NCBI RefSeq assembly: GCF_013362815.1
Contig: NZ_JABFVK010000004.1
Coordinates: forward strand, 1 to 64,000
Reading direction: 5' to 3'
DNA: 64,000 bases
DNA from: Hamadaea sp.
Lineage (GTDB): Bacteria > Actinomycetota > Actinomycetes > Mycobacteriales > Micromonosporaceae
In this document: positions 7,331 to 15,873 of the stretch, in pieces
Layout: every line of letters starts with the position of its first letter
Position numbering within the stretch: the first letter of the stretch is position 1
Translations under genes and position numbers: made by a program
The notes under the pieces: generated by a model
Told to the model about the DNA's origin: nothing
Databases searched by the model: none
Seen by the model: the letters and a program-made list of their open reading frames with translations, nothing else

Positions 7331-8464
7331 GTGGCCAAGGACTACTACGGCATCTTGGGCGTGCCCAAGGACGCCACCGCGGACGACATCAAGCGCGCTT
7401 ATCGCAAGCTCGCGCGGCAATACCACCCCGATGTCAACCCGGACCCCGAGGCGCAGGACCGCTTCAAGGAGATCAACGCCGCCTACGAAGTGCTCTCCGA
7501 CGACCACAAGCGGCAGATCGTCGACCTCGGCGGCGACCCGCTCGCCCCCGGTGGCGGCGGCATGGGCGGCGGTCCCGGCGCGGGCGGCCCGTTCGTCGGG
7601 TTCCAGGACATCATGGACGCGTTCTTCGGTGGCGCGACCGCCCGGGGACCGCGGCCACGCGTACGCGCCGGGGCGGATGCGATCATCCGGCTCGATCTGG
7701 AGCTTCAGGAGACGGCGTTCGGCGTGGAAGCGCCGCTCACCGTGGACACCGCCGTCCTCTGCTCGACCTGTTCGGGCGCCGGGACGGCAGCCGGCACCCA
7801 CCCCGTGACCTGCGACATCTGTCACGGCAAGGGCGAGGTGCAGTCGGTTCAGCGTACGTTCCTCGGCCAGGTCGTCTCGACTCGTCCGTGCGCCGCCTGC
7901 CAGGGCTTCGGCACGACCATCCCGAACCCGTGCGCCACCTGTGGCGGGGAGGGCCGGGTGCGTACGCGGCGGACGCTGACCGTGAAGATCCCGGCCGGGG
8001 TCGAGGACGGCATGCGCATCCGGCTGGCTCAGCAGGGCGAGGTCGGTCCCGGCGGTGGCCAGCCCGGCGACCTCTACGTCGAGATCCACGAACGGCCGCA
8101 CGACGTCTTCGCCCGCAAGGGCAACGACCTGCACTGCAAGGTGACGGTGCCGATGACGGCGGCGGCGCTGGGCACCCGGCTCACCATCAAGACCCTCGAC
8201 TCGGAGGAGCAGGTCGACGTGAAGGCCGGCACGCAGCCCGGCGCCACGGTACGCATCAAGGGCCGGGGGGTTCCGCAGTTGCGCGGCAGCGCTCGGGGCG
8301 ACCTGTTCGTGCACCTCGATGTGCGTACGCCGACCAAGATCACGCCGGATCAGGAGCGGATGCTGCGCGACTTCGCCAAGTCGCGGGGCGAGGAGATGGC
8401 CGAGCTTGCCAAGCAGACCGGCGGTTTCTTCAACTCGCTGCGCAACGCGTTCAACGGCCACTGA
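7331..8464 (+). CDS. dnaJ: Molecular chaperone DnaJ (Hsp40)
   Basis: This 377-residue protein carries all type I DnaJ parts. The J domain has HPD at 32-34, which stimulates DnaK. A Gly-rich linker with [10 protein letters not shown] follows. The zinc domain has four CxxCxGxG units ([32 protein letters not shown]). The C-terminal substrate-binding domains follow. It is co-transcribed with hrcA, which marks it as the hrcA-linked DnaJ2 paralogue rather than the dnaK-operon copy. GTG 7331 gives the canonical start [11 protein letters not shown]. rsmE follows after 3 bases. Confidence 0.97.
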
Positions 8465-8467
8465 TCC

Positions 8468-9199
8468 GTGAGCAAACCGCTGTTTCTGGTCGACGCGCTG
8501 CCCGCTGCCGGGCGGTTCGTCCTGGAAGGTGCGGAAGGTCGGCATGCCGCCGACGTCCAGCGCCTGCGTCCGGGCGAGGAGCTGCTGCTCGGCGACGGTC
8601 ACGGCGGTGTCGCCCCGGCCGTCGTCAGCTCCGTCGGTAAGGGCACGCTGCTGCTCGACGTCGGCGCGGCGGCGGTGGCCGAGGTCGCGCAGCCGCGGAT
8701 CGTGGTCGCGCAGGGCCTGGCCAAGGGCGACCGTGGCGAGCTCGCGGTCCAGGCGATGACCGAGGTCGGCGTGGACGAGATCCTGCCCTGGGCGGCCGCG
8801 CGCAGCGTCACCCAGTGGCGCGGCGATCGCGGCGCCAAGTCACGCGACAAGTGGGCGGCCACTGCCCGCGAAGCGGCCAAGCAGGCCCGCCGCGCGTGGG
8901 TCCCGTCCGTGGGCGGCTCGCCCGACGTCTCGACCAAGCAGCTCGCCGCGCGGATCAGTGCCGGCTCCGCGTTCGTCCTTCATGAGGAGGCACTTGTACG
9001 CCTGGCGGCCGTCGATCTGCCGGACACCGGTGACCTGATCCTGGTCGTGGGTCCGGAAGGCGGCGTCGCGCCGGACGAGCTTGCCACGTTCACCGAGGCC
9101 GGGGCGATTGCCGTGCGGCTGGGCGACAACGTTCTGCGTACGTCGACGGCGGGGGTGGCGGCGATCAGCCTGCTGAACACCCGGCTCGGCCGGTGGTGA
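8468..9199 (+). CDS. rsmE: 16S rRNA (uracil-1498-N3)-methyltransferase RsmE
   Basis: This 243-residue SPOUT-class methyltransferase has an N-terminal PUA-like RNA-binding part (RHAADVQRLRPGEELLLGDG). The C-terminal knotted domain contains LVVGPEGGVAPDE and LRTSTAGVAAISLLN, the SAM-binding motifs of RsmE. It methylates U1498 of 16S rRNA. It is translationally close to dnaJ (3-base gap), a common hrcA-dnaJ-rsmE order in actinobacteria. The start GTG 8468 gives VSKPLFLVD. Confidence 0.95.
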   Translation: MSKPLFLVDALPAAGRFVLEGAEGRHAADVQRLRPGEELLLGDGHGGVAPAVVSSVGKGTLLLDVGAAAVAEVAQPRIVVAQGLAKGDRGELAVQAMTEVGVDEILPWAAARSVTQWRGDRGAKSRDKWAATAREAAKQARRAWVPSVGGSPDVSTKQLAARISAGSAFVLHEEALVRLAAVDLPDTGDLILVVGPEGGVAPDELATFTEAGAIAVRLGDNVLRTSTAGVAAISLLNTRLGRW

Positions 9200-9206
9200 C
9201 TGCAAC

Positions 9207-9220
9207 TGCAAACGGTTGCA
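9207..9220. promoter_or_regulatory. LacI-like operator palindrome before the pectinase gene
   Basis: TGCAAACGGTTGCA is a near-perfect palindrome centred on CG, the style of LacI/GalR-family operators. It is followed by a region that also holds TGCATGTGCA (around 9293). It lies 125 bases upstream of the pectate lyase/pectinesterase ATG. This may be catabolite or pectin-responsive control. No regulator gene is adjacent. Confidence 0.4.
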
Positions 9221-9344
9221 AACCTGTCTGACGTAGTCAATTGACCCACTCGGATCTGCTCAGACATGGCCGATCTAGCTCTTCGATACATTTGCATGTG
9301 CAGAAATATTGGTAGGCCGCGCCGGTTTTCGTAACGTGCTCGGC

Positions 9345-11588
9345 ATGCGTACGACACGTCTGGTGCTCGCCGTCTCCCTCGTCGCCCTCGGGCTGACCGC
9401 CGGACCGGCGCCCGCAACCGCGCAGGGCCCGCAGAACGGCCCCGGCCGCGACGCCCTCGCCGCCAACGACGGCTGGGCCTCGGCGACGACCGGCACGTCC
9501 GGTGGGGGCGCGGCCGATCCCGCGCACACCTTCGTCGTACGCGATCGAGCTGGGCTCGTGGCCGCGCTCGGCGACGGCACCGACACCACGCCCCGGATGG
9601 TCTACGTCGCCGGCAAGATCGACGGCGACGCCGCCCCGGACAACTGCGCGAAGTACGCCGACCCCGGCTACACGCGAGAGGCTTACCTCGCGGCGTACGA
9701 CCCGGCGGTTTGGGGGCGGACGACGAAGCCGAGCGGACCGCTCGAGACGGCCCGTGCGGCGTCGCAAGCGAGGCAGTCCGCCGAGACGAAGATCCGCGTC
9801 TACGGCAACACCACGATCTTCGGCCTCGGCGGCGGCGCACGCCTGTCCGGGATGAACCTGATGCTCAGCGCGGCCGACAACGTGGTGATCCGCAACCTCG
9901 ACGTCGAAGCCCCGGTCGACTGCTTCCCGAGCTGGGACCCGACCGACGGCGCGGAGGGCAACTGGAACTCCGAGTACGACGCGATCACGCTGACCTACGC
10001 GTCGACGCACGTCTGGATCGACCACAACAGCTTCAGCGACGGCCGCTACCCCGACTCGACCCAGCCGCTCTACTTCGGACGGCCCTATCAGTGGCACGAC
10101 GGGCTCGTCGACCTGATCCGAGGCAGCGACTTCGTGACGATGTCGTGGAACGTCTTCGCCGACCACGACAAGACCCACCTCATCGGCAACACCGACAAGA
10201 CCACCAACGGCGACGAGGGCAAGCTGCACGTCACCATTCACCACAACATCTATCGCAACTCCGGCCAGCGGGTGCCACGGGTACGCTTCGGCCAGGTCGA
10301 CGTCTACGACAACCTGTATCAGGTCACCGACCCGGACGCGTACTCGTACAGCTGGGGTGTCGGCGTCAACTCGGCCATCGTCGCCCAGCACAACGCCTTC
10401 GAACTGGCCGACGGCGTCGATCCTGCGAAGATCATCAAGTACTGGAAGGGCACCGCGATAACGGCGTCGGACAACCTCGTGAACGGCGCTGTCGTGGATC
10501 TGCTTTCGGCGTACAACTCGGCGAATGTGGAGCAACTCGGCGCGGACGCCGGCTGGACCCCGACCCTGCGCGCCACAGTCCATGCTCCGGCCCAGCTGGC
10601 GCGAGTGTTGCGCGAGCTGGCCGGAGCGGGCCGCGCGGGCCGCGCGGAGACCATCACGGTCGACCCGCTCGGTGACTTCCCGACCGTGCAGTCCGCAGTG
10701 GACGCCGCACCGACCGGCAGCCCGGCGCGGGTGACCATCCGGGTACGCCCCGGCGTGTACCGCGGCACCGTGACCGTCCCCTCGGACAAGCCGAATCTGG
10801 CGATCGTTGGAACCACCGGCCGGGCCGAGGACGTGGTCATCGTCGAGAATCACTGCAACGGCTGCCTCAAGCCGGACGGCACGACGTACGGCACCACCGG
10901 CAGCGCGACGGTCACCTTGAAGGGCAACGACTTCCTCGCGCGCGACGTCACTTTCGCCAATGACTTCGACGAGGCCGGCCACCCCGAGATCAGCAGCAAG
11001 CAGGCGGTCGCAGTGAAGACGACAGGCGACCGCATCCTCTTCGACGGCGTGCGATTCCTCGGCAATCAGGACACGCTTTACGTGGACACCCCGGTCGTCA
11101 CCGCCACCGCCCGGGTCTACGTTCATGACTCCTATGTGGAGGGAGATGTCGACTTCATCTTCGGCCGGGCGACCGCCGTCTTCGACCACGTACGCATCCA
11201 CGGCCTCGACCGAGGGCTGAACCCGGCGGGCTACTTCACGGCGGCCAGTACGCAGCTGTTCAACCCGCGGGGTTTCCTGATCACGCACTCGACGCTGACC
11301 AGCGACGCCCCGGCGCAGTCGTACTACCTCGGGCGGCCCTGGCACCCGAGCAACGACCCGAACGCGCAGGCCCAGGTCGTGATCCGGGAGAGCAGCCTGC
11401 CCGCCGCGATCAAGAGCACCCCGTGGACCGACATGTCCGGCTTCTCCTGGCGGGACGCCCGGTTCGGCGAGTACGCCAACACCGGGCCCGGCTCCGTCGG
11501 CGACCCAGCCGACCGGCCCCAGGTCGCTGACCCCGGTTTGGTCACCGTCGCCGCCTACCTGGGCGACTGGACCCCTGGGTGCCTATGA
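9345..11588 (+). CDS. Secreted bifunctional pectate lyase (PL1) and pectin methylesterase (CE8)
   Basis: The protein has 747 residues with a signal peptide (MRTTRLVLAV to about ATAQ, residue 27). The first half is a polysaccharide lyase family 1 beta-helix with WIDHNSFSDG, DHDKTHLIGNTD and RVPRVRFGQVDVYDN. The second half, from about residue 440, is a family 8 carbohydrate esterase with GNQDTLYVD, YVEGDVDFIFGRA and YYLGRPWH, covering the catalytic Gln, two Asp and Arg. De-esterification by the second domain would create substrate for the first. The start ATG 9345 lacks a clear ribosome site; a leaderless or alternative GTG 9336 start is possible. No pectin transporter lies nearby, so it stands alone. 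Confidence 0.93.
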   Translation: MRTTRLVLAVSLVALGLTAGPAPATAQGPQNGPGRDALAANDGWASATTGTSGGGAADPAHTFVVRDRAGLVAALGDGTDTTPRMVYVAGKIDGDAAPDNCAKYADPGYTREAYLAAYDPAVWGRTTKPSGPLETARAASQARQSAETKIRVYGNTTIFGLGGGARLSGMNLMLSAADNVVIRNLDVEAPVDCFPSWDPTDGAEGNWNSEYDAITLTYASTHVWIDHNSFSDGRYPDSTQPLYFGRPYQWHDGLVDLIRGSDFVTMSWNVFADHDKTHLIGNTDKTTNGDEGKLHVTIHHNIYRNSGQRVPRVRFGQVDVYDNLYQVTDPDAYSYSWGVGVNSAIVAQHNAFELADGVDPAKIIKYWKGTAITASDNLVNGAVVDLLSAYNSANVEQLGADAGWTPTLRATVHAPAQLARVLRELAGAGRAGRAETITVDPLGDFPTVQSAVDAAPTGSPARVTIRVRPGVYRGTVTVPSDKPNLAIVGTTGRAEDVVIVENHCNGCLKPDGTTYGTTGSATVTLKGNDFLARDVTFANDFDEAGHPEISSKQAVAVKTTGDRILFDGVRFLGNQDTLYVDTPVVTATARVYVHDSYVEGDVDFIFGRATAVFDHVRIHGLDRGLNPAGYFTAASTQLFNPRGFLITHSTLTSDAPAQSYYLGRPWHPSNDPNAQAQVVIRESSLPAAIKSTPWTDMSGFSWRDARFGEYANTGPGSVGDPADRPQVADPGLVTVAAYLGDWTPGCL

Positions 11589-11603: not shown

Positions 11604-14030
11604 CTATACCTCGCGATCAAGGTTCTGCGTGGCATCGCTGTACATCACTGATGCACTGATGTCGTCGGCGCTTTGTGGTCGCTTTGGATAGTTCGACCAC
11701 ATCCGCGTATAAGGTGAGTCGTCTAGACTGATGAAACGCAGCACCTCACCTCGATCGGAGAACCGCGCCGACGGCATGGCATGCTGTGGCACATCTAGCT
11801 CGGGCAATCCCAACCAGGCGAGCCCCGACGGGCGGTACAGGATCAGCTGGTGTCCTCTGGTGGCCGTCAAGGTGACGATCGACCGGCTAGCCTCATCACG
11901 TTCCGTGCGAGTTCGGCGGTAGTGCATTCGGGCAAAACCATTGACCTCTATCGTTTCAATCGCCTCTCTGATCGCGGTAAGAGCGATTCGTAGGCGATCA
12001 CCTGGATTTGTCGTTCTTCTCCGTGGGTGCAACCATTCGTTCCTCGCTTCATTGATATCTGCGCCTATTAACCCTCTCGTCAAACCTTGCAGCGCGTCCA
12101 GGATCTCCGTCCGACTGTCGCTAAGTAAGTCTAGGAATGGAACAATATGTGAGAACGGAAATTGCTCCAAACTCTGCGACTTAAACCAGATCGGAATACG
12201 ATTCTCTGATCGAAGATACTCATCTTCGCGGCTGATTGTGCTCTTAAGGTATTCGGCAATCAGGCCGAAGCCACGGGCCAACGGGTAGAGCGTTAGTTTG
12301 CCGTCAAGATTCAGTCGCGGATTTCCTGACTCGTCTACGTCGTGTGCTGCTTGTGTCTTAAGGATTTCAAGCGCGGCCACGCTATCTTTGTGAGGGCGGT
12401 ACGTGAACGGCTGCTCGCTCGAGAAATGATCATTAGCAAGACACCACGTCGTGTACAGTAGAGAATCCTGCAAAATGGCCTCGACCTGAACGAAATAGTT
12501 TACAATTTGACCGCGGAGCTGCTCTTCGTCGACATCGAACGCTTTCAAATCTCCTTGTCGAGTCAGGCTAACCATCTTCTCATGCTGCTGCCAGAACATC
12601 TCATGAGGGTCGAAAGAATCTTCCACAGAAAAGCCGAGTTTCCATAGAACTGCGTCGACTCGCTCGTGATCAGTTGTTAGCGTGCGTTCGTTCAGCATGA
12701 GTTTCTCGGCTGCGACTATAAAGTTGCTCCGTCGTGCCAAAAGAAGAGCATTCACAGCTTCGCGCGGCGTCCGTGATCTAAGATACTGCTCAACTACGGC
12801 CTCAATATTTTCCGTGCCATCATCTCGAAGTTGCAGATGCCAGGCAAGTTCTAGTCGATCTTCCTCGCTGTCGAATCGATACATTTGTCGGACTAGGCGG
12901 CGCAGTCGCAAGACGGCCAACGACTTCTCGTTGGGTCGCAGGCGAAGACCATTAACGCTCAGCTCCGGACGTAACCCAAATGCATTACCCATGGGACGTT
13001 GCGACAATCGGGGTCGCCTCACCTCGGTCGGCGGGATCTCGATGTCGCCGGATGATATCAAGGCATCTATCGCTGCGAATATTTCTCGATTAGCCGTAAG
13101 AAGTACTAGTTGAATTAGCTCTGCGGAATTAAGGCGAGCCGCTATGCTCGACGCCGGCCCGCCAGGCCCTCCCAACTCGCGAAGGATAGTCCGAAGCTCG
13201 CCACGTGTATCGTCGAGCAAGCGACCTGCTAGGGTTTGTAGTTCGCCCAACGTAAGAGCATCACCAATTAGGCTGGCTATCGAGTCGCCGGCGAAGTCAT
13301 CGTAGGGGTCCGCTGGATAGATGGAGAACCGCCGGAAATAGCCCGACCAGTCGCTAGAGCTCGGGAATTCTCGTGCGAGAATCTTGTCGGACTTCTCTCG
13401 GCTCTCGTTAATGTCTGCTTCTCGTGCTGTCTCCAGTTGATGGTAGTGAAGGCGCGTGCACGTGTCGTCCGCGCAATGGTATGCAAAGCGAAGGCTTGGG
13501 CTCAAACTACGACGTTCTTTAGATCGCAGCAATCCGTACGGGCCGACAACGAGATTGCCGACTTGGAAGACTCCTTGCGGCGTGCCATCCATGAGCTCGA
13601 GGGTGTCACGGTGAGTTACTCGACTTTTCCTGTTGAGACCTAGGTCATGAGCCTTGTCGTACAACAGCCGACCATATGTGTATGGGTACCTTATTTCGGC
13701 GTCGCGAACCTGCTTGGAAACCGCCGAGGCTAGTCGTTGAATGTCTGTTGCAGTTGGATCGATAAGCGAATCCACCTGTAGCAAATCGAGGTAGCAGATG
13801 AAGCGTGCGCAGGGATATGGGACGCCCCGCTTCATCATTTTCTCGACGACACGCTCGCCGTCTCCCGTAAGCACGAGTGGATCGTATAACGGCTGGGTTA
13901 TCTTATATTCGCGCCCGATGATGCAGCGTTCGACAAGAGTCCGAAGATCTAGCAATTCATTGAGTGCGCGTCGGAACTCAATGTCACCATAACGCTCGGC
14001 GAGTTGATCATCGGTCAGCGGTTCCGACAT
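11604..14030 (-). CDS. Orphan 808-aa protein with putative C-terminal HEPN motif, on an AT-richer island
   Basis: I do not recognise this family. The protein is large, soluble (no signal peptide or membrane segment) and mostly helical by composition. Two features stand out. HCADDTCTRLHYH (residues 185-197) could bind a metal. In the C-terminal part (about 505-705), RNEWLH (663-668) fits the R-[N/D/H]-x3-H signature of HEPN ribonucleases, within a helical context and after an amphipathic helix VQVEAILQDSLLYTTW. The last ~100 residues look like a small separate domain. The gene is visibly AT-richer with relaxed codon use compared with both neighbours, a sign of recent acquisition. It stands alone, with no toxin/antitoxin partner. 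ATG 14030 was preferred to TTG 14036. A phage-defence role is an inference. Confidence 0.55.
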   Translation of the reverse strand: MSEPLTDDQLAERYGDIEFRRALNELLDLRTLVERCIIGREYKITQPLYDPLVLTGDGERVVEKMMKRGVPYPCARFICYLDLLQVDSLIDPTATDIQRLASAVSKQVRDAEIRYPYTYGRLLYDKAHDLGLNRKSRVTHRDTLELMDGTPQGVFQVGNLVVGPYGLLRSKERRSLSPSLRFAYHCADDTCTRLHYHQLETAREADINESREKSDKILAREFPSSSDWSGYFRRFSIYPADPYDDFAGDSIASLIGDALTLGELQTLAGRLLDDTRGELRTILRELGGPGGPASSIAARLNSAELIQLVLLTANREIFAAIDALISSGDIEIPPTEVRRPRLSQRPMGNAFGLRPELSVNGLRLRPNEKSLAVLRLRRLVRQMYRFDSEEDRLELAWHLQLRDDGTENIEAVVEQYLRSRTPREAVNALLLARRSNFIVAAEKLMLNERTLTTDHERVDAVLWKLGFSVEDSFDPHEMFWQQHEKMVSLTRQGDLKAFDVDEEQLRGQIVNYFVQVEAILQDSLLYTTWCLANDHFSSEQPFTYRPHKDSVAALEILKTQAAHDVDESGNPRLNLDGKLTLYPLARGFGLIAEYLKSTISREDEYLRSENRIPIWFKSQSLEQFPFSHIVPFLDLLSDSRTEILDALQGLTRGLIGADINEARNEWLHPRRRTTNPGDRLRIALTAIREAIETIEVNGFARMHYRRTRTERDEASRSIVTLTATRGHQLILYRPSGLAWLGLPELDVPQHAMPSARFSDRGEVLRFISLDDSPYTRMWSNYPKRPQSADDISASVMYSDATQNLDREV

Positions 14031-14185
14031 GTCCAAACGATACCGTGAAACCTTGATGGAAAGCGATGGTTCGCTCGCTCATGAACTTAGTGCAATTTCC
14101 TGGAGAGTTGACCGAATAGCGCCCAGTCGTTCGGTGCAGAGTGTGAGCCACCGGCTCGGTAGCGACAACCGTTAAGGTGAGCGAC

Positions 14186-14530
14186 GTGACCGATTGCCTG
14201 TTCTGCCGGATCGTGGCGGGCGAGATCCCCGCGACCGTGGTGTACGAGACCGACGCCGTGCTGGCCTTCCGGGACATCCGGCCGAAGGCCGGCGTCCACG
14301 TGCTCGTGATCCCGAAGCAGCATTTCGACAGCGTGGTCGAGCTGGGCGCCGATCCCGCTGCGGCGGGTGCGCTGATCGCGGCGGTCGGCGAGGTCGCGCG
14401 AGCGGAGGGCGTCGTCGAGCCCGGCTTCCGGACGATCTTCAACACCGGCCCGGACAGCGGCATGGAGGTCCCGCACGTGCATGCCCACATCTTGGGCGGT
14501 GGTCCGCTGGGAGCTATGGTCGCTGGGTGA
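14186..14530 (+). CDS. HIT-family nucleotide-binding protein
   Basis: This 114-residue protein has the histidine triad HVHAHILGG near its C-terminus and the N-terminal DCLFCRIVAGEIPA typical of the HINT branch. Such proteins hydrolyse nucleoside phosphoramidates or AMP-lysine-like adducts. The N-terminal Cys pair may bind zinc. GTG 14186 was chosen because AAGG lies 8 bases upstream. GTG 14177 would add three residues. Its TGA overlaps the GTG of the following serine hydrolase, implying co-translation. Confidence 0.92.
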   Translation: MTDCLFCRIVAGEIPATVVYETDAVLAFRDIRPKAGVHVLVIPKQHFDSVVELGADPAAAGALIAAVGEVARAEGVVEPGFRTIFNTGPDSGMEVPHVHAHILGGGPLGAMVAG

Positions 14531-15873
14531 TCGACTCCGTCACCCGCTCCGTCCAGCGTCTACAGGCCGACGCCCGGATTCCCGCCCTCACCGTCGCCGT
14601 ACGCCGCAACGACCGTCCGCTGTGGACGATGGAGGTCGGCGAGTCGGGGACGAGCCGGCCGCTGGATTCGCGTACGCGTCTGCGCATCGGCTCGGTGACG
14701 AAGACGTTCACCGCCGTGCTGATCATGCAGGCGCGCGATGCCGGGCTGCTCGATCTGGACGACGCCATCGGTACGCATCTGCCGATCCCGAAGCACGGTG
14801 AGCTCACCCTGCGGCGGCTGCTCAGCCACACCGCCGGGTTGCAGCGGGAGCCGTTCGGGGACGTGTGGGACACGCTGCGCGTACCGGGGGCGGAGCAGTT
14901 CCTCGCCGATCTCGACCGCGCCGAGGCGCTCTACCCCCAGTCGCGTCGCTTCCACTACTCCAACCTCGCGTACGCGCTGCTCGGGGCGGTCGCGGCGGAG
15001 AAGTTCGGCGCGTCGTGGGCGTCCCTGGTCGCCGACCGGATCGCCGCCCCGCTCGGACTGGAGAGCATCGGGCCCGACGTCGACGAGTTGTGCGCCCAGG
15101 GCTTCCTGGTGGACCCGTACTCCGATCACGCTCGGCCGGAACCATCGACCGACTTCGGCGTCTTCGGCCCGGCCGCTCAGCTCTGGGCGACCGCGGCCGA
15201 CATGGCCACCTGGGGTGCCTTCCTCGCCGACCCGGCCTCGGCCGACCCTGACGGCAAGGTGCTGGCCGCCTCGACGCTGCTGGAGATGCGCTGGCCGCAC
15301 ACCGTACGCGACGACGAGCAGTGGGTCTCCGGGCTCGGGCTCGGCCTCATGGTCTACCCGCGACCGCAGCGCGTGCTGTATGTCGGGCACAACGGGGCGA
15401 TGCCCGGCTTCCTCGCCTCCGTCTACGGGCGGGTCGGTGGAGCGGGCAACCCCGGTGGCGTCGGCGTCGCGGTGCTGGCCTCGTCGGGGACCGCCGACGA
15501 GATCTTCCCGTTCGCACACAACCTAGTCGATGAAGTGCTCGGCGCCGACCCGCCCGCCATCGCGCCCTGGCGGGCCGGCGAGCCCGCTCCGGCGGCGTAC
15601 CGGTCGGTGTTGGGTCGCTGGTGGGGCGAAGGGTACGAGTACGTGTTCCGGTGGTCTGACGGTCGCCTCACCGCCCGGGGTGCGGACGACCCTGCCGGGC
15701 TGCCGCCGTCGGTGTTCGAGCCGCTGGAGGGCGACGTTCTGCGTACGGTGTCCGGCCGGGAGGTCGGCGAGCTGCTCCGACTGCATCGAGACAGCGAGGG
15801 CGTGGTCACCCGGATGCATTGGGCGACCTACCGCTTCACCCGGTCTCAAGAGACCTTCGACGGCCAGCTCTAG
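14527..15873 (+). CDS. Serine hydrolase, class C beta-lactamase/esterase fold
   Basis: The protein has 448 residues. The SxxK nucleophile motif is SVTK in RIGSVTKTFTAV, and the YxN motif is YSN in FHYSNLAYALLG. The third motif is probably the HNG of LYVGHNGAMPGF. The family covers class C beta-lactamases, DD-peptidases and esterases. There is no signal peptide, so a cytoplasmic esterase or peptidase is more likely than a beta-lactamase. The C-terminal ~110 residues form an extra beta-rich domain often seen with these hydrolases. GTG 14527 overlaps the HIT stop codon. Confidence 0.87.
   Translation: MIDSVTRSVQRLQADARIPALTVAVRRNDRPLWTMEVGESGTSRPLDSRTRLRIGSVTKTFTAVLIMQARDAGLLDLDDAIGTHLPIPKHGELTLRRLLSHTAGLQREPFGDVWDTLRVPGAEQFLADLDRAEALYPQSRRFHYSNLAYALLGAVAAEKFGASWASLVADRIAAPLGLESIGPDVDELCAQGFLVDPYSDHARPEPSTDFGVFGPAAQLWATAADMATWGAFLADPASADPDGKVLAASTLLEMRWPHTVRDDEQWVSGLGLGLMVYPRPQRVLYVGHNGAMPGFLASVYGRVGGAGNPGGVGVAVLASSGTADEIFPFAHNLVDEVLGADPPAIAPWRAGEPAPAAYRSVLGRWWGEGYEYVFRWSDGRLTARGADDPAGLPPSVFEPLEGDVLRTVSGREVGELLRLHRDSEGVVTRMHWATYRFTRSQETFDGQL

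Follow-up and report, generated by a model that had tools for sequence, protein, structure and literature searches.

A single-gene AT-rich insert in Hamadaea sp. encodes a predicted HEPN RNase that is probably an abortive-infection effector

The window, the whole stretch of DNA analysed here, comprises 64,000 nucleotides from Hamadaea sp. (contig NZ_JABFVK010000004.1, positions 1 to 64,000). An orphan gene lies on its minus strand between two ORFs of the plus strand, at 9309-11588 and 14177-14530, which are called the pectinase gene and the HIT gene; these names, like those of the rsmE and phoH genes below, are read off the sequence and not taken from a profile search. The reading frame of the orphan gene runs from an ATG at 14030 to a stop codon ending at 11604 with no internal stops, and an alternative in-frame TTG start at 14036 would give a protein of 810 residues. 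A search of the genome finds one copy of the gene. The gene and the segment that contains it are as follows.

11604..14030, minus strand: orphan gene, an intact single-gene ORF of 808 amino acids
11589..14176 at most, no strand assigned: segment missing in the congener G003, whose homology to the window ends at 11575 and sets in again at 14184

The gene has a base composition of its own. Its GC content is 0.537, whereas the 8-kb flanks have 0.692; of the 227 stretches of equal length in the rest of the 64 kb, not one is as GC-poor. GC3 is 0.567, versus 0.869-0.928 in the rsmE, pectinase, HIT and phoH genes. The original prediction of a single-gene AT-rich island is borne out by these values. 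A promoter and terminator scan gives two promoter-like sites against 1.1 expected, none of them useful.

In G003 a gap of about 180 bp separates the pectinase gene from the HIT gene, with no trace of the orphan gene between them, and the DNA on either side is 88% (8000-11575) and 87% (14184-15871) identical to that of the window. Four locus layouts were compared in all; in the stretches seen of the other three (G001, G012 and G004), an rsmE-like gene is followed directly by the HIT gene, and the pectinase and orphan genes are absent. Because of the empty site in G003, the orphan gene is most simply explained as an insertion behind the pectinase gene. There is no tRNA gene in the window, no convincing direct repeats flank the insert and no target duplication is seen. 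The pectinase gene is itself extra between the rsmE-like and HIT genes, being present in G003 and absent in G001, G012 and G004; the rsmE-like/HIT spot appears to be a site of two inserts.

The encoded protein had been described as belonging to no recognised family, which holds for the three catalogues searched: no Pfam, NCBIfam or PADLOC model matches the window protein. PADLOC-DB 2.0.0 returns no family at E up to 10 for this protein and none for the five members scanned of 15, while NCBIfam gives only four chance-level rows over all 15 copies. In the literature on HEPN proteins and phage defence no description of the family was recognised, an unnamed family not being searchable by name.

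The relatives of the protein consist of 14 full-length copies and one split copy. In the window’s family, full-length copies occur in five of 354 genomes, the window’s own included; this search gave 70 matches at E up to 1, of which the five full-length ones, at E 2e-203 or better, are counted and the other 65 (E 0.0038 or worse, 16.7 bits or fewer) are not. The gene is absent from all three congeners in the family sample, one of which has a genome only 87% complete. It is found in 6 of the 397 genomes of an order sample, 5 of 394 of a class sample, 2 of 396 of a phylum sample (one being the split copy of G664) and 5 of 249 genomes of a second family; in a third family one genome in 39 has it, and in one genus one in 38. 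The samples overlap. Scanned with a sequence pattern, 84,980 species genomes give two matches, one in Micromonospora endolithica and one in Nocardioides hwasunensis. No relatives turned up among plasmids, phages and viral contigs, for which one to three copies served as queries. The presence of the gene is rare, patchy and not universal. The split copy (G664, L037 7665-10165) consists of two ORFs in different frames; the G664 genome is 75% complete, and an assembly error is a possible source of the split.

In the tree of the family, the five copies from the window’s family form one clade (support 100/100), and the Nocardioides copy groups with two copies from family f21. G217 and G325 are congeners, yet their copies do not group, and a forced grouping is rejected (p-AU 0.00016, for a pair that was named after the tree had been seen). 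Forced groupings of the f15 copies (p-AU 0.083), of G899 with G1195 (0.137) and of G1378 with G1416 (0.332) are not rejected. As judged from these sequences, movement of the gene between genera is supported. Transfer between families is not supported: the window-family copies are one clade, and the three groupings just named are not rejected. HEPN domains serve in RNA processing as well (PMC3710099), and a single clade within the window’s family would suit a HEPN protein with a host or accessory role in RNA processing or regulation, unrelated to conflict. Such a role is improbable, however, for a gene that is missing from the three congeners and from 349 of the 354 family genomes, a poor fit for housekeeping, and whose copies have no neighbourhood in common.

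Conservation was analysed over the 15 full-length copies, whose pairwise identity averages 33% (range 22-74%); the relatives are 23-54% identical to the window protein. The features of the protein are as follows.

13533..13583, minus strand: residues 150-166, the strongly conserved stretch TPQGVFQxGxxVxGPYG
13446..13478, minus strand: residues 185-195 (HCADDTCTRLH), H-C-x4-C-x3-H, a candidate zinc site by conservation
11943..12608, minus strand: residues 475-696, predicted HEPN domain from an AlphaFold2 model
12480..12482, minus strand: E517, an acidic position of helix 2 that is invariant
12027..12044, minus strand: residues 663-668, RNEWLH, predicted catalytic motif with invariant R, N and H
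11661..11939, minus strand: residues 698-790, C-terminal extension in which three strands are predicted (704-733) and some residues are invariant

In the N-terminal part, P151, G153, V154, G163, P164 and G166 are invariant within the 150-166 stretch. A possible metal-binding module had been proposed at residues 185-197, and its putative ligands are well kept: C186, C191 and H195 are identical in 15 of 15 copies and H185 in 14, the exception being a Leu in G899. These residues may bind a metal, presumably zinc. In the C-terminal part, R663, N664 and H668 of the RNEWLH motif are identical in all 15 copies, and the second piece of the split copy has RNGLDH. The position of E517 is Glu throughout. 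A Lys or Arg follows it four residues later in 7 of the 15 copies, while the window protein has Gln; an Ex3[KR] motif is present in many, but not all, HEPN families. L520, W529, D534 and H535 are also invariant, as are P734, S735, P743, A755, E762, R765, F766, W778 and R784 in the C-terminal extension. W529, D534 and H535 (window 11826-12611), which are located beside E517, could be part of an active site or of a dimer contact.

An assignment to the HEPN RNases had been made from the RNEWLH string and its helical context. Because 19% of 5000 shuffles of the orphan protein contain at least one R[NDH]xxxH, the string alone would be weak evidence for such a domain. Since its R, N and H are kept in 15 of 15 divergent copies, the motif appears to be more than a product of chance. 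HEPN domains are defined by an Rx4-6H motif with a polar residue after the Arg (PMC3710099), and such a motif is found in every one of the 15 copies.

The AlphaFold2 model of residues 474-735, computed with the 15-sequence alignment, has a mean pLDDT of 89.2 and a pTM of 0.86. Its core is formed by helices 475-491, 502-532 (which holds E517), 637-656 together with 659-667, and 676-696, followed by the three strands. The insert after helix 502-532 carries helices 546-563 and 581-600, and RNEWLH closes the third core helix and opens the next loop. In the HEPN layout outlined in PMC3710099, helix 2 bears an acidic residue, an insert separates helices 2 and 3, and helix 3 ends with the motif; the model agrees with this layout in the order of these elements, which is the level at which the two were compared. 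VIA-align of the domain model includes five HEPN proteins among the 50 rows listed, with Z values in the range that the tool calls common for helical bundles. These are 1wwp, a HEPN protein (PMC3710099), in third place (Z 8.0, 3.0 Å, 116 of 119 residues), HepT 6m6u in seventh (Z 7.6, 3.0 Å, 116 of 130 residues), and the Csm6 structures 5yjc, 4rgp and 6tug (Z 6.1, 6.0 and 5.8 over 132-138 residues, ranks 41, 46 and 49). The remaining rows are unrelated helical proteins, among which receptors and BAR-domain proteins reach equally high Z. Foldseek finds nothing for the domain model at E 0.001 or better. The fold match to solved HEPN structures is suggestive and not significant.

Profile searches give a similar picture. 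PF18731 (HEPN_Swt1) weakly matches two of the 15 members, at E 0.0081 at best, and no HEPN profile in Pfam matches the window protein itself. Profile searches of the PDB with the window protein and with the five-member, C-terminal and N-terminal alignments find no convincing relative. Taking the conserved motif and the model together, residues 475-696 are very probably a HEPN domain, and the protein is likely to be an active RNase. A HEPN-like helical domain that only binds, having no nuclease activity, would be consistent with the weak structural similarity and with an RNase activity that is predicted only, but is quite improbable, given that conservation within the domain is highest at the catalytic residues, which are identical in 15 of 15 copies. 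Of the fold check that the original prediction called for, the bundle layout and the confident model stand, while the match to solved structures stays suggestive. A full-length AlphaFold2 model with five sequences has a mean pLDDT of 46.9 and a pTM of 0.38, and because of this low confidence no fold is claimed for residues 1-470. Its fold matches are mostly receptors and other helical chains, with Csm6' 8pe3 at rank 32 (Z 6.3), and Foldseek finds nothing significant for it.

Each of the known HEPN systems has features that the orphan protein shares or lacks. The Swt1/Abi2-like group (PF18731), in the description of PMC3710099, resembles it in the Asn after the Arg, the acidic residue in helix 2, the insert and the place of the motif. 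It differs in that no profile match is significant, and passages of that paper describe neither a long N-terminal region nor a C-terminal extension for the group. No CARF domain, in contrast to Csm6, has been identified in the orphan protein. In HEPN-MNT toxins the motif is RX4HXY (PMC7641770), whereas the tyrosine is absent from all 15 copies, and no antitoxin partner recurs. The HEPN motif itself, with HepT among the better structural matches, would suit the toxin component of a toxin-antitoxin system such as HEPN-MNT. That assignment is very improbable: there is no recurring partner over 16 loci, whose neighbours were scanned for MNT in part, the RX4HXY tyrosine is missing, and the protein has 808 residues against 130 in the HepT chain.

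A close likeness, in architecture only, is with Tha, a single protein of 301 residues from S. aureus prophages that has a C-terminal HEPN domain with R265NSIMH270 and in which phage tail proteins trigger RNA degradation and abortive infection (PMC11087260). Like Tha, the orphan protein is encoded by one gene and has a C-terminal HEPN domain with R-N-x3-H behind an uncharacterised N-terminal part. Tha-1 is much shorter, with 301 residues compared with 808, and is prophage-borne in Firmicutes; the passages on Tha in PMC11087260 mention no zinc motif, for which the orphan protein has a candidate.

Mobile-element genes are frequent in the surroundings of the relatives. Pfam domains identify RepSA and an integrase at the G325 locus, RepSA, FtsK/SpoIIIE and an integrase at G1111, a TrwC relaxase plus an integrase roughly 140 bp away from the gene in Nocardioides hwasunensis, a TraG/T4CP protein at G1188 and an integrase fragment at G217. 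An integrase remnant lies 157 bp from the split copy in G664, and in G1387 a relaxase-like ORF, recognised by its similarity to the Nocardioides relaxase, ends about 160 bp upstream. The stretches examined in the window, G343, G899, G1195, G1289, G1378 and G1416 contain no mobile-element genes. Of 11 genomes, 4 have an integrase domain no more than 10 kb away from the gene, where 0.45 would be expected (P 6.5e-4), and 5 have one no more than 15 kb away, where the expectation is 0.64 (P 1.9e-4); this statistic covers 11 of the 16 loci with some rounded genome sizes, and both limits were set after the positions had been seen. Phage-integrase domains number two in the 7.4 Mb of the window’s own genome, and 7-22 in ten other genomes searched.

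When the ORFs of all 16 loci are compared all against all, the only families present in at least three loci are integrase, excisionase-like and relaxase families, and mobile-element genes aside no partner gene recurs. Non-mobile pairs, each in two loci, are an ABC ATPase (G217, G1002), DUF5919 (G1002, G1111) and a short ORF (G217, G325). The window flanks have nothing in common with the other loci at E 1e-6. The copies lie in unrelated places, and at the window’s own site the congener G003 lacks the gene. A HEPN RNase that serves integrative or conjugative elements, by excluding or killing competitors or by tuning transfer, with phage defence secondary or absent, would explain why RepSA, FtsK/T4CP, relaxase or integrase genes lie near seven of the copies, the G664 remnant included. 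It is unlikely, as several copies, that of the window among them, have no element genes nearby, and the G1416 copy lies among phage-defence genes.

At that G1416 locus (L072 11477-17224) a compact defence island adjoins the gene, with matches to PD-Lambda-1 (E 1.6e-104), a type IV restriction enzyme (mREase_IV, 1.6e-30) and a PARIS-like AriAB (1.4e-60). These systems share a locus with the orphan gene as neighbours, and they are unrelated to it. A clear defence island is present at only one of the relatives’ 15 loci. The PADLOC scan of neighbours covered 103 proteins (102 of 184 listed, and one HNH gene that was re-read); among the best 25 of 76 matched families, 19 distinct proteins were traced individually, and at the other loci none of these is a clear defence system. 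In G343 an HNH_2 gene (L005 251-1180), a candidate restriction gene with a PADLOC HNH match at 7.8e-19, ends about 320 bp upstream. The PADLOC candidate families PDC-S68 (5.3e-20) and PDC-S07 also matched neighbours of relatives. A strong mad3/AriA match in G1002 is an ABC-transporter-like ATPase and is not counted as defence. The idea that homologues recur in defence islands has one strong case among the 15 loci. Defence systems discovered by experiment are in some cases narrowly distributed and located away from defence islands (PMC9519451); the rarity and setting of the orphan gene fit such systems and do not prove membership among them.

We conclude that the orphan protein is probably a stand-alone, mobile HEPN RNase, a likely effector of abortive infection whose sensor region is uncharacterised. 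A main role in antiphage function has a probability of about 0.58. The invariant RNxxxH and E517, the model with the HEPN layout, the rarity of the gene, the empty site, the integrases, the G1416 island and the Tha precedent argue for defence. Against it stand the Foldseek null result, the VIA Z values in the common range, the lack of a match to a HEPN profile, of the Lys or Arg after E517 and of a PADLOC match, the single island, the one clade formed by the window-family copies, which gives no sign of transfer between families, and the lack of relatives among the phages, plasmids and viral contigs searched.

In the proposed mechanism, actinobacterial integrative and conjugative elements would carry the gene and leave it in place as an insert of one gene. 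The first 470 or so residues, which include the H-C-x4-C-x3-H and PQGVFQ...GPYG motifs, would restrain the HEPN domain; on recognising a phage product or some other mark of infection they would release it. Once switched on, the C-terminal domain (475-696) would cut RNA in the infected cell, and growth would halt before phage progeny form. N-terminal sensing with release of the RNase is proposed because of the analogy with Tha. A HEPN effector is of a known kind; the architecture and the family look new. If the defence reading is true, it would add a single-gene RNase system that is absent from the catalogues, is missed by the present Pfam, NCBIfam and PADLOC models and is carried by mobile elements of antibiotic-producing actinobacteria, and the first 470 residues with their invariant positions would be a candidate new sensor fold.

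In each of the 15 copies the gene is the lowest-GC stretch of its length within its own locus, with GC values of 0.50-0.63. AT-richness therefore characterises the family and is kept up in hosts of high GC, and because it is common to 15 of 15 copies it is no proof of recent import; an argument for recent import from GC alone is rejected. Of the foreign origin claimed for the island, the empty site in G003 and the patchy presence stand, and the argument from AT-richness to recent arrival falls. The outcomes named as speaking against the original prediction were a model lacking the HEPN fold, GC and codon use like those of the flanks, and universal vertical presence; none of them was found.

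Silencers of the Lsr2 type bind AT-rich DNA in actinobacteria (PMC6584129, PMC7002338). It is speculation that AT-richness lets Lsr2 silence the gene until infection; if so, the AT-richness of the whole family might connect xenogeneic silencing with the way in which toxic defence genes are controlled. A more far-reaching version of the defence reading, in which these proteins are one-protein actinobacterial immune receptors, with a zinc-motif sensor of about 470 residues gating the HEPN RNase, carried between genera by ICEs and keeping their AT-richness for Lsr2 silencing, is tentative and rather doubtful as a whole. The most diverged copy is that of G899 (L036 9133-11442), which has the Leu in place of H185, a GC3 of 0.81 and a long branch in the tree, and which sits between sugar-transport-like genes.
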